Part shown: in pieces, positions 28,180-47,944 of the stretch | Numbering within the stretch: the stretch's first letter is position 1 | Layout: every line of letters begins with the position of its first letter | NCBI RefSeq assembly: GCF_004328075.1 | Contig: NZ_SJFN01000009.1 | Location: 62,667 to 126,666 of the forward strand | DNA length: 64,000 nucleotides | Reading direction: 5' to 3' | From: Siculibacillus lacustris | GTDB lineage: Bacteria; Pseudomonadota; Alphaproteobacteria; Rhizobiales; Ancalomicrobiaceae | Translations under genes and position numbers: made by a program | Notes under the pieces: generated by a model | Seen by the model: the letters and a program-made list of their open reading frames with translations, nothing else | The model's database searches: none | Told to the model about the DNA's origin: nothing

Positions 28180-28854
28180 ATGGCAGCAGATCTGATTTCC
28201 CCGATCGTCTCCGAGGACGTCCCGTCACTGGCCGACCGTGCCTATGCGTCGCTGCGCGAAGCGATCATCGACGGGCGGCTGGCGGCCGGCGCCAAGCTCT
28301 CCGAACGATCGCTGGCCGCGGCCCTCGGCGTGTCGCCGCAGCCGGTGCGCGAGGCGTTGCGACGGCTGGAGAGCGAAGGGCTCGCCGAGGCGCGACCGCG
28401 CAGCGGCAGCTTCGTCACGGTGTTCACCGTCGAACGACTGGTGGAAATGGGCCTGATGCGGGCGGCTTTGGAGACGGTGGCCGCCGGCATCGCCGCGCGC
28501 CGCCGAACCGACGCCGACATCGCGGCGCTGCGGGCCTGCATGACGGTGGTCGATGCGGCCTCCGCCGCCAACGACGACCGCCGTCTGGCGGCCGCCAACG
28601 ACGCGCTCCACGCCGCCATCCACGCGATCACCGGCAATCTCGTGCTGATCCGCAACCTGCAGGCGCTGCGTGGCTACTATCACATCTCGAGCCGGTTGAT
28701 CCTGGTGCGCGAGCTCGAGATCGGCGAATCGCTGAAGGAGCACACGGCTGTGGTCGAGGCGATCATTGCCGGCGATCGGGCCGAAGCCGAGCGCCAGATG
28801 CACCATCACACACATCGCAACCTGCGCGTCGCCTTCCCCGGCAGCGACATCTGA
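28180..28854 (+). CDS. GntR family regulator, FCD (FadR-type) domain
   Basis: A 224-residue regulator. The winged helix-turn-helix spans ~15-80 (YASLREAIIDGRLAAGAKLSERSLAAALGVS, then QPVREALRRLESEGL). The all-helical FCD domain follows, with the metal-site His in AANDALHAAIHAIT, in LKEHTAVVEAI and in HHHTHRNL, as expected for FCD sensors of carboxylates. It probably controls the divergent SDR - MFS - dehydrogenase operon in answer to a sugar acid. The ATG at 28180 has only a weak purine-rich site. An upstream frame is possible but Arg-rich. Confidence 0.85.
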   Translation: MAADLISPIVSEDVPSLADRAYASLREAIIDGRLAAGAKLSERSLAAALGVSPQPVREALRRLESEGLAEARPRSGSFVTVFTVERLVEMGLMRAALETVAAGIAARRRTDADIAALRACMTVVDAASAANDDRRLAAANDALHAAIHAITGNLVLIRNLQALRGYYHISSRLILVRELEIGESLKEHTAVVEAIIAGDRAEAERQMHHHTHRNLRVAFPGSDI

Positions 28855-28960
28855 TCGAGATCTTCGCGGGCGCCGCGCGCCGCAACCAGCGTATCGCTCC
28901 CCGGCCCTTCGATGATCGGATTGATGGGCAGCACCACGGTCACCATGAAGAAGGCGCCGA

Positions 28961-29140
28961 TCAGCAGCGGATCAGCCGGCGGATTTCGTCGGCGGAAAGA
29001 GCCGTGCGGTTGATCGGCCGGGCGTGCAGCGCGTCGGAACCGAGCGCCATGTCGAGGGCGACCCGCTTCAGCGGAAAGCGCTTCTCGGCGACGATCACCG
29101 TGTAGGCGAGATCGGCGAATTCGCGGCCGCGCTCGCTCAT
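28961..29140 (-). CDS. Small helix-turn-helix-like protein of 59 residues
   Basis: The small protein overlaps the preceding gene by four bases (ATGA), so it is translated with it. Residues ~20-45 (FPLKRVALDMALGSDALHA) look like a helix-turn-helix of the phage-regulator kind, followed by LSADEIRRLIR. I know no named family. Together with its partner it forms a two-gene cassette beside a recombinase remnant and a tRNA gene. It could be a regulator, antitoxin or partner of the upstream protein. That is inference. Confidence 0.6.
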   Translation of the reverse strand: MSERGREFADLAYTVIVAEKRFPLKRVALDMALGSDALHARPINRTALSADEIRRLIRC

Positions 29141-29898
29141 CGCCCCCTCCCCCGCCCGGCGCCGAGCTCGGCGAGCCGGGCCACCAGCCGCTCGCGATCG
29201 ATCCATTCGAGCGGCACCAGCGCCACGCCGAGGGCCGCCGCCTTGCCGTGCAGTTGCTCGTAGCGCGGCTCGCCGCGGCGCTCGTCCCACAGATCGGTGG
29301 TGACCACCAGGGCGACGGCGGAGGTCGCCTCGCCGAAGTGGTCGATCAGATTGTCGGCCTCCTGGAGGGCCTCCATCAACCGGGCGCGATGGCGGGGGCC
29401 GCCGTCGTCGAGGCGCGAGCGCAGCGCCTTGGCCGAGACGAACACCAGGCGATCGGCGAAGCGGGCGATGGTGTCGATCTCGTTCTCGCCTTCGAAGCCC
29501 TGGGCGATCCAGCCGAGCTTCTGGCCGATCCGCACCTCGTCGGCGCCGGCGGCGAGCGCACAGAGCCCCAAGTGTTCCTCGAGCCAGCCGCCGCGCAAAT
29601 AGCGATCGGCCTCCGCCGAGGGCGAGAACACCCCGCCGCCGTCGACCACGAGCACGCCGCAGGCGACCAGTTGCCGGGCGAGCGCGACCTCCGCAGGCCC
29701 CGCGAGCGGCCCGGCGACACAGCCGGTCGCCACGTCGCGGACCCGTTCGAAGGTGGGAAAATGCGCGGCGATCGCGGTCGTCGCGTCGGCGCGGGCGGTG
29801 GCGCGGGAAAGATCGAGGCCGCGATCGGCGAACCACGCGCCGTGACGCCTGAGCCGCGCTTCGATGCCGGCGAGAGGTGCGAGATCGACGTCGGACAT
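29137..29898 (-). CDS. Card1/DUF1887-like protein without CARF domain, possibly inactive PD-(D/E)XK fold
   Basis: A 253-residue protein. Residues ~60-100 look like a winged helix (GPAEVALARQLVACGVLVVDGG). LRGGWLEEHL at 102-110 and ENEIDTIARFADRLVFVSAK at 138-157 then follow the order of the C-terminal nuclease of Card1/DUF1887 proteins: GGWLE, NEID, then E-C-K. Here the third motif reads VSAK, so the catalytic Glu is replaced by Ser while Asp142 and Lys157 remain. The CARF sensor half is absent. The family call rests on these short motifs only. The ATG at 29898 has GAGGGGG upstream. A DUF1887 name is tentative; an unrelated hypothetical is possible. Confidence 0.6.
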   Translation of the reverse strand: MSDVDLAPLAGIEARLRRHGAWFADRGLDLSRATARADATTAIAAHFPTFERVRDVATGCVAGPLAGPAEVALARQLVACGVLVVDGGGVFSPSAEADRYLRGGWLEEHLGLCALAAGADEVRIGQKLGWIAQGFEGENEIDTIARFADRLVFVSAKALRSRLDDGGPRHRARLMEALQEADNLIDHFGEATSAVALVVTTDLWDERRGEPRYEQLHGKAAALGVALVPLEWIDRERLVARLAELGAGRGRGR

Positions 29899-29953
29899 GA
29901 GACCCCCTCGGCGCGCGAAGCTGTAATCCACCTTCTTCATCCAACTGAGGCCA

Positions 29954-30292
29954 GTGTCCAGAGGTCAACGCGCCGTCACGCCGGCTGAGCGAATCGGCGC
30001 CGTGATCGTGAGCGAGGCCACCGGGCAGCCCTACAGCCCGGGGATCTTCGCGAAGACGTGGCGGAAGATCGCGGACGCGGCCGGCATCCCGAAGGAGGTC
30101 TGGAACCGCGACAGCCGGGCCGGGGCGGTCTCCGAAGGTGATGAGGCCGGCGCCACGCTCGGCGAGTTGCAGCGCATGGCTGGCCACACGACGTCGAAAA
30201 TCACGCAGCGCTACAGGCGGGGCGAGAACGTCGTTTCGTCTCAGGAATTGGCTGGATTGCGTGCGGAGAAACGAAAGGTCGGGAAAACGTGA
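29954..30292 (+). pseudogene. Tyrosine recombinase/integrase, C-terminal fragment
   Basis: Only ~110 residues remain. They show the C-terminal catalytic half of a phage-type integrase: NRDSRAG (Arg of the HxxR box, with the His changed), LQRMAGHTT (the GH box) and the Tyr in ITQRYRR. The N-terminal arm- and core-binding parts and the first catalytic Arg are missing. The frame opens with a GTG without a convincing ribosome site. It points toward the 3' end of tRNA-Arg 65 bases away, the usual place for an integrase at a tRNA attachment site. Probably a decayed relic. Confidence 0.8.
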
Positions 30293-30356: not shown

Positions 30357-30432
30357 TGGCGACCCCGGCAGGATTCGAACCTGCGACCAACAGCTTAGAA
30401 GGCTGTCGCTCTATCCCCTGAGCTACGGGGCC
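30357..30432 (-). tRNA. tRNA-Arg (anticodon TCT)
   Basis: A full cloverleaf of 76 bases including an encoded CCA. The acceptor arm GGCCCCG pairs with CGGGGTC (one G-U). The D arm is GCTCAGGGGATAGAGC. The anticodon arm is ACAGC, loop CTTCTAA, GCTGT. The T arm is GCAGG, TTCGAAT, CCTGC. The discriminator is G. It reads AGA codons. Its 3' end faces the integrase fragment. Confidence 0.97.
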
Positions 30433-47674: not shown

Positions 47675-47944
47675 GAAGAACGCGACGCCCCGATGATCGA
47701 CGCGACCCCGGCAGACGCGGGATCCGACCCGTCCATGACACCAGACTCTGGTTAACGCGAGCTTGCCGAGACGGTCACGAATCGCCCCGCCCCCCGTCCT
47801 TTCGCCGGCGCGAGACGATGCGGCGAGTGCGGCCGCCGACGAATCGGCCGCGGCGCGCCGGCGCGCCAACCCGATGTTCATCCGATCGTGCGATCCTCGC
47901 GGTCGAGACCCGGGTGTCGCCGGGTCGCCGTTCCGAGGTGCGCC

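Follow-up and report, generated by a model that had tools for sequence, protein, structure and literature searches.

Genes and features at the locus

The window, i.e. the whole stretch of 64,000 nt of Siculibacillus lacustris DNA analysed here, contains two overlapping protein frames on the minus strand. P1 (29137-29898) is an intact frame of 253 codons with an ATG start at 29898, and P2 (28961-29140) is a frame of 59 codons whose start overlaps the P1 stop as ATGA. A start further upstream at 29940, where the long frame has its earliest start codon, would yield a P1 of 267 aa; it was rejected and the start at 29898 is preferred, because the ribosome-binding-site-like GAGGGGGT precedes the ATG at this position. 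To the left of both frames lies the gene of a GntR/FCD regulator (28180-28854). A short minus-strand frame of 46 aa (28806-28960), without Pfam match and located past the truncated end of P2, is probably host DNA at a deletion joint. On the other side of P1, the plus strand carries the C-terminal remnant of a tyrosine integrase (29954-30292), matched by PF00589 (3.9e-5, yet under the bit cut-off) and by PHROG integrases (1.2e-4 and 2e-4). It is present as a fragment only and adjoins a minus-strand tRNA-Arg (TCT) gene (30357-30432), detected by ARAGORN and by the Rfam tRNA model (2e-13). The G+C content of P1 is 0.731, compared with a mean of 0.681 (s.d. 0.032) in 762-base windows.

The tRNA-Arg is the probable attachment site of an island, and the P1/P2 site fits a decayed remnant of it. 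Outside the tRNA itself, the window contains a single exact tRNA-derived repeat of at least 13 bases, which is 13 bases long and lies at 47702; no clear attL repeat occurs among the exact matches. The original prediction had placed the genes in a tRNA island remnant, and the tRNA-Arg together with the integrase fragment bears this out. The prediction's wider idea of an island or defence setting applies to the window and to a single relative found in a CRISPR locus, but not to the surroundings of 11 other relatives (see below).

A short family related to Can2/Card1 nucleases

Alone, the P1 sequence is matched in residues 92-238 by the PADLOC CARF_PDDEXK model (2.7e-10) and only at 0.048 by Pfam PF09002, under the Pfam cut-off. 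A single-sequence search returns no PDB chain, and no matches are found in NCBIfam and PHROGs. Relatives were sampled in 297 genomes of the same order, with 15 matches at E up to 0.001. One of them, in genome G100, was dropped, since by our own reading its frame (L015/L030) is an FAD oxidoreductase. The other 14 proteins constitute the short family, which comprises P1 from the window's genome plus 13 relatives sharing 29-46% identity; all 11 matches to PF09002 in the same 297 genomes belong to it. Wider samples gave matches in two of 385 genomes of the class (one being the window's own) and in eight of 329 of the phylum (including the window's own and one other of the same order, G022), and outside the order only long proteins are encountered. 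Relatives of P1 were found neither on plasmids or phages by tblastn nor in viral contigs searched with the family alignment. When long DUF1887-type proteins served as queries, plasmid matches came to one record for L068 and two for L016, a single distant long protein from one genome-contig scan; there were none for L072 and L073, and phages searched with L072 and viral contigs searched with L073 gave no match. Separately, a Caballeronia plasmid (NZ_CP049321.1, 20738-33439; locus L080) encodes an annotated 597-aa 'DUF1887 family CARF protein'. Its neighbours are genes for WXG100, FtsK/SpoIIIE, VWA, PP2C and kinase proteins, which is unusual company for a CARF nuclease.

The homology to Card1-type nucleases goes beyond chance. 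All 14 aligned members are matched by the PADLOC CARF_PDDEXK models (E up to 0.01) and by PF09002 (E up to 0.1), and the profile built from the 14 sequences reaches the solved structures of Card1 (4.6e-5), Can2 (5.1e-5) and VC1899 (8.5e-4). With the match of P1 itself, this upholds the original assignment as Card1/DUF1887-like. Aligned by hhalign with eight long relatives (probability 99.3%, E 6.6e-21), the profile covers solely columns 146-379 of 385, i.e. the part that follows the CARF domain, and P1 aligns with this part over its length. The CARF part is absent in 14 of 14 short proteins, so the lack of the sensor that had been noted for P1 extends to the whole family. Likewise, the motifs first recognized in the 253-residue protein (GGWLEE, NEID and the final, catalytic Lys) are all present. 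The residues that precede the GGW motif number 94-131 in the 14 short proteins versus 163-453 in the long ones measured. The lower value of the latter range is from L074, a frame of 303 aa counted as long with its CARF part presumed; L079, missed by the motif pattern used for these lengths, was added to the tree and column comparison, L075 and L069 are the same gene, and L078, a partial frame of 182 aa below cut-off and without readable ExK motif, was left out.

The origin of the short proteins may be sought in one kind of CARF protein. The PADLOC model PDLC01880 (CARF4--CARF_PDDEXK) matches all 14 of them (best 9e-18) and, at 1.5e-28 over residues 2-368, the long protein L073, in which the E-x-K half-motif likewise reads S-x-K. 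As this model is the best or near-best match for the short proteins and for L073, it suggests a CARF protein of this kind as ancestral to the SxK branch. The gene of L073 itself (G707:C18; L082:7700-12613) directly precedes one for a TPR-rich protein of 1203 aa that begins with a P-loop-like stretch, and no cas gene was read in the vicinity; the two may form a separate two-gene defence cassette.

P1 is not a Can2/Card1 effector by membership, because the CARF part and the Glu of E-x-K were both tested and are both missing. It is a member of a CARF-less, SxK-plus-E branch of the Can2/Card1 nuclease family. The branch is a new variant within this family and not a toxin-antitoxin or regulatory pair; no description of a CARF-less Card1-type family was found in the open-licence literature, surveyed at listing level.

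A Ser/Glu exchange in the active site

The catalytic site of this family is described for Cdn1, a DUF1887-family enzyme. According to excerpts of PMC12825302, its metal site is made of E274, E308, D310, E323 and K325, and the mutations E308A, D310A or E323A abolish activity. In the docked model of the same excerpts (PMC12825302), K345, written K345′, sits on the phosphodiester; this lysine perhaps belongs to the partner subunit. The counterparts in P1, all encoded on the minus strand, are E107 (codon 29578-29580), the Glu of GGWLE corresponding to E274; E140, corresponding to E308; D142 (29473-29475), the Asp of NEID corresponding to D310; and K157 (29428-29430), the Lys of E-x-K corresponding to K325. 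The numbering of E308, D310, E323, K325 and K345 was checked, and E274 was counted by hand on the alignment row.

Columns were compared in 27 nuclease domains aligned in three MAFFT modes: an SxK group of 15, made up of the 14 short proteins and the long L073, and a group of 12 long proteins with ExK. E107, E140, D142 and K157 are invariant in both groups (15/15 and 12/12). There are just two columns in which each group is uniform but the residue differs from one group to the other. At position 155 (codon 29434-29436), a Ser in 15/15 replaces the Glu of E-x-K found in 12/12 (Cdn1 E323), and at position 180 (29359-29361), in the next helix, a Glu in 15/15 replaces the Lys found in 12/12 (Cdn1 K345). 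The same residue pairing results from hhalign and from the pairwise alignment of P1 with L016. The four solved proteins VC1899, Can2, Card1 and Cdn1 all have E-C-K together with the helix Lys, 8bao being unscored for the helix residue. The Ser that the original prediction had noticed at the position of the catalytic Glu in P1 is common to all 14 short-family members, where the half-motif reads S-A-K in P1 and S-C-K in the other 13.

Migrated catalytic acids are documented among PD-(D/E)XK enzymes (excerpts of PMC551604 and PMC4652773). At the sequence level the branch displays the PD-XXK-E pattern, with D142, K157 and E180 invariant in 15/15 and E180 located in helix 168-191 of a low-confidence model. 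We propose E180 as the candidate migrated acid that would replace the lost Glu of E-x-K. Read in this manner, the Ser/Glu exchange with its invariant E180 suggests that P1 is probably an active nuclease of PD-XXK-E type, a reading favoured over that of a dead one. Ser155 was considered as proof of a dead enzyme and rejected, E180 being present in 15/15 and the remaining site residues being invariant.

The strongest competing view, which we hold to be rather unlikely, is that P1 is a Card1-type domain without catalytic activity, whose sole function would be to bind nucleic acid or a partner, perhaps in a regulatory role. It agrees with the replacement by Ser, in 14/14 short proteins, of a Glu that is essential in Cdn1 (E323A is inactive in the excerpts of PMC12825302). 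However, one would expect the residues of a dead site to drift, and the invariance of E107, E140, D142 and K157 in 15/15 and 12/12 weakens this view, as does the helix acid conserved in 15/15. In a tree with long branches, the SxK proteins are confined to one side of a branch with support 94/91, so the exchange may correspond to a single event and not to repeated covariation.

Predicted structure of P1

Structure models of P1 are of low confidence. Predicted from P1 alone, the model has a mean pLDDT of 45.1; a second one, with the Card1-type L016 added to the alignment, has a mean pLDDT of 44.6 and a pTM of 0.47. The order of elements in the latter is a helix, three strands, the long helix 168-191 that holds E180, and a strand. 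No Foldseek match reached E 0.001; the top two rows are AP endonucleases, and Can2 ranks third (E 0.18). The best rows of VIA-align are Can2 (Z 8.3), Cdn1 (8.2 and 8.1), 8bao (7.9) and VC1899 (7.8), followed by Upx (7.4), of unclear kinship, and Rab5B (6.5), of unrelated fold; the tool warns that Z values of 7-8 are common for models without clear matches. The check by structure prediction that had been suggested for P1 gives Can2, Cdn1 and VC1899 as best partners in VIA-align (Z 7.8-8.3), but no significance in Foldseek. In these low-confidence models the fold agrees with PD-(D/E)XK, which P1 may therefore have.

Genomic surroundings and the CRISPR connection

The surroundings of the P1-like gene were read in 11 relatives, over 5 kb on each side where the contig allowed, from translated starts inspected by eye without HMMs; a twelfth relative, L025, was viewed with its immediate flanks only. 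In the 11 relatives, ordinary chromosomal genes surround the P1-like gene and no cas genes were seen in the stretches read. One neighbourhood is common to five of the six relatives in genus g74, and a quinone-oxidoreductase-like gene follows the P1-like gene in four of the five relatives of family f23. These common neighbourhoods speak for vertical upkeep. At the four f23 loci (L020, L024, L025 and L026), the quinone-oxidoreductase-like gene is on the same strand and, in three of them, lies within ~15 bases of the P1-like gene or overlaps it, a possible operon. P1-like genes are under purifying selection among the relatives, with pN 0.116 versus pS 0.751 in the closest pair, where synonymous change is near saturation; P1 itself has no close relative.

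The last of the 13 relatives, in genome G223, is the only one seen with a type III CRISPR locus around its P1-like gene. Here the start codon of this gene lies within the stop codon (TAATG) of a DHH/NrN gene, whose predicted coordinates in turn overlap those of corA. The locus further comprises Cas10 (with GGDE and no HD), RAMP proteins, Cas6 and an RT-Cas1 fusion, together with arrays that count 17-18 and 7 repeats, and a Cas3e gene lies downstream; from the PADLOC hits we read it as 'type III-D-like'. As a whole (L055, L056 and L017; G223:C11, 919600-956000), it is a composite CRISPR locus, with type III genes beside a Cas3e operon and a phage CII-like gene past the RAMP genes. In the family of G223, the P1-like gene occurs in one genome of 20, G223 itself. 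CorA and NrN are parts of SAM-AMP immunity (excerpts of PMC10600005). Scanning the 329 genomes of the phylum with the NrN model turned up a single weak match; four plasmid records had partial matches, and viral contigs had none.

Given this arrangement, P1 could be imagined as a sensor-less accessory effector of type III CRISPR, acting for instance beside CorA in SAM-AMP signalling, the copy in the window being an orphan. The coupling of the G223 gene to NrN behind corA, near Cas10, Cas6 and RT-Cas1, speaks for it, as does a relative of P2 with 70% identity situated 17 kb away on the same contig. We nevertheless regard it as improbable, as a CRISPR locus accompanies the gene in just one of the 13 relatives (11 others read, one by its flanks only) and PF22335, the one Cas10 model searched, matches nothing in the genome of the window; nor does the window contain a type III CRISPR locus. 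Elsewhere in the window's own genome (L057; G000:C3:8000-27900), a CRISPR-Cas locus with ~50 repeats and a Cas1 matched by model looks like type I-C by gene order.

P2 and phage CII/CP76-type regulators

P2 alone has no family match in Pfam, PADLOC, NCBIfam or PHROGs. In the 297 genomes of the order it gives 12 matches, including that in its own genome, the best relative being a 161-aa protein (L056:7243-7728) with 70-71% identity over 57 residues. This protein is matched by PF06892 (Phage_CP76/CII; 1.9e-8) and by the PHROG of CII-like activators (2.3e-8). P2 follows it over residues 3-59, with a conserved start, and homology stops at position 58-59 of 161; the remaining ~100 residues of the regulator were not found beside P2 in the window. 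P2 is the truncated N-terminus of a ~160-aa phage regulator of CII/CP76 type and makes up about one third of it. A P2-like frame adjoins the P1-like gene in none of the 13 relatives' loci; P2-like genes exist elsewhere in the genomes of five relatives (G084, G119, G175, G197 and G223), at least 17 kb away or on another contig, the nearest being the one in G223.

The small HTH-like gene that the original prediction had coupled to P1 is a real frame with an ATGA overlap, but it is a truncated regulator and not a partner. A pairing of P1 with P2, whether for toxin-antitoxin action, defence or regulation, is highly improbable, despite the ATGA overlap and the conserved start of P2: P2 stops where homology to the ~160-aa regulator breaks off, and no adjacent partner gene is conserved in the 13 relatives' loci. 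A toxin-antitoxin or defence module made of the two genes was rejected on these grounds, and the proposed survey of other genomes returned the very outcome, a pair that is not conserved, under which the proposal was to be given up. The coupled start points to a former arrangement of P1 and the regulator in this order, and to nothing beyond.

Proposed mechanism and significance

Collectively, the explanation that we moderately favour is that P1 is a stand-alone PD-(D/E)XK nuclease derived from a Can2/Card1 ancestor by loss of CARF, with E180 as migrated acid and P2 as a broken regulator. A long CARF-bearing protein of Can2/Card1 type would have lost its CARF half, the ~100 N-terminal residues of P1 matching the module between CARF and nuclease and the rest the nuclease domain. 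The predicted metal site would employ E107, E140, D142 and K157 as in Cdn1, while E180 from the next helix would stand in for the Glu replaced by S155, giving a site of the PD-XXK-E kind. Such an enzyme would cut nucleic acid with Mg2+ or Mn2+, free of cyclic-oligoadenylate control, and its restraint, if any, might come from expression, oligomer state or a further partner. The P1 copy in the window would survive in the decayed tRNA-Arg island next to the broken phage regulator. What we infer for P1 is catalysis by E180, its substrate and its role, possible roles being defence, the turnover of nucleic acid or a CRISPR-linked one.

A broader scenario, doubtful at this stage, may be envisaged. 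A Card1-derived lineage might have left CRISPR control by dropping CARF and moving an acid from strand to helix, the helix Lys becoming a catalytic carboxylate, so as to persist as an autonomous chromosomal nuclease, and might have been recruited again beside corA-nrn in at least one genome. The G223 gene would then act as a second effector without CARF, joined by translational coupling to corA-nrn type III immunity of the SAM-AMP kind.

In CARF nucleases, the sensor is believed to act as the restraint. A conserved blade without sensor and with an apparently rewired site raises the questions of how it is made safe and what it cuts. The S155/E180 exchange provides a two-residue prediction that is directly testable. 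Finally, the copy coupled to corA-nrn raises the prospect that SAM-AMP systems may include nuclease effectors which a search based on sensors would overlook.

Comparison with known systems

The closest known systems are Can2, Card1 and Cdn1, the DUF1887 CARF-nuclease effectors of type III CRISPR. P1 shares with them the nuclease domain, including GGW-x-E, N-E-x-D and its catalytic Lys, as well as the module preceding it. It differs by the absence of the CARF sensor, by a Ser in place of the essential Glu and a Glu in place of the helix Lys and, with respect to Can2 and Card1, by the absence of type III CRISPR linkage in the window and of a Cas10 match (PF22335) in its own genome. The same distinction separates the short family from PDLC01880, a model that contains the CARF part. 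P2 resembles the phage CII/CP76-type regulators (PF06892, phrog_101), its 57 N-terminal residues being 70% identical to a 161-aa member, but is short by ~100 residues. For the putative rewired site, the likeness is with Cfr10I, NgoMIV, Ecl18kI and PspGI, restriction enzymes of PD-XXK-E type in which the strand Lys is kept and the second acid comes from the following helix (excerpts of PMC551604 and PMC4652773). The spacing from Lys to acid is 22 residues in P1 versus 12-13 as quoted in the excerpt of PMC4652773, and P1 is likened to the Cfr10I/NgoMIV type with no sequence kinship seen here and without known sequence specificity or methylase.
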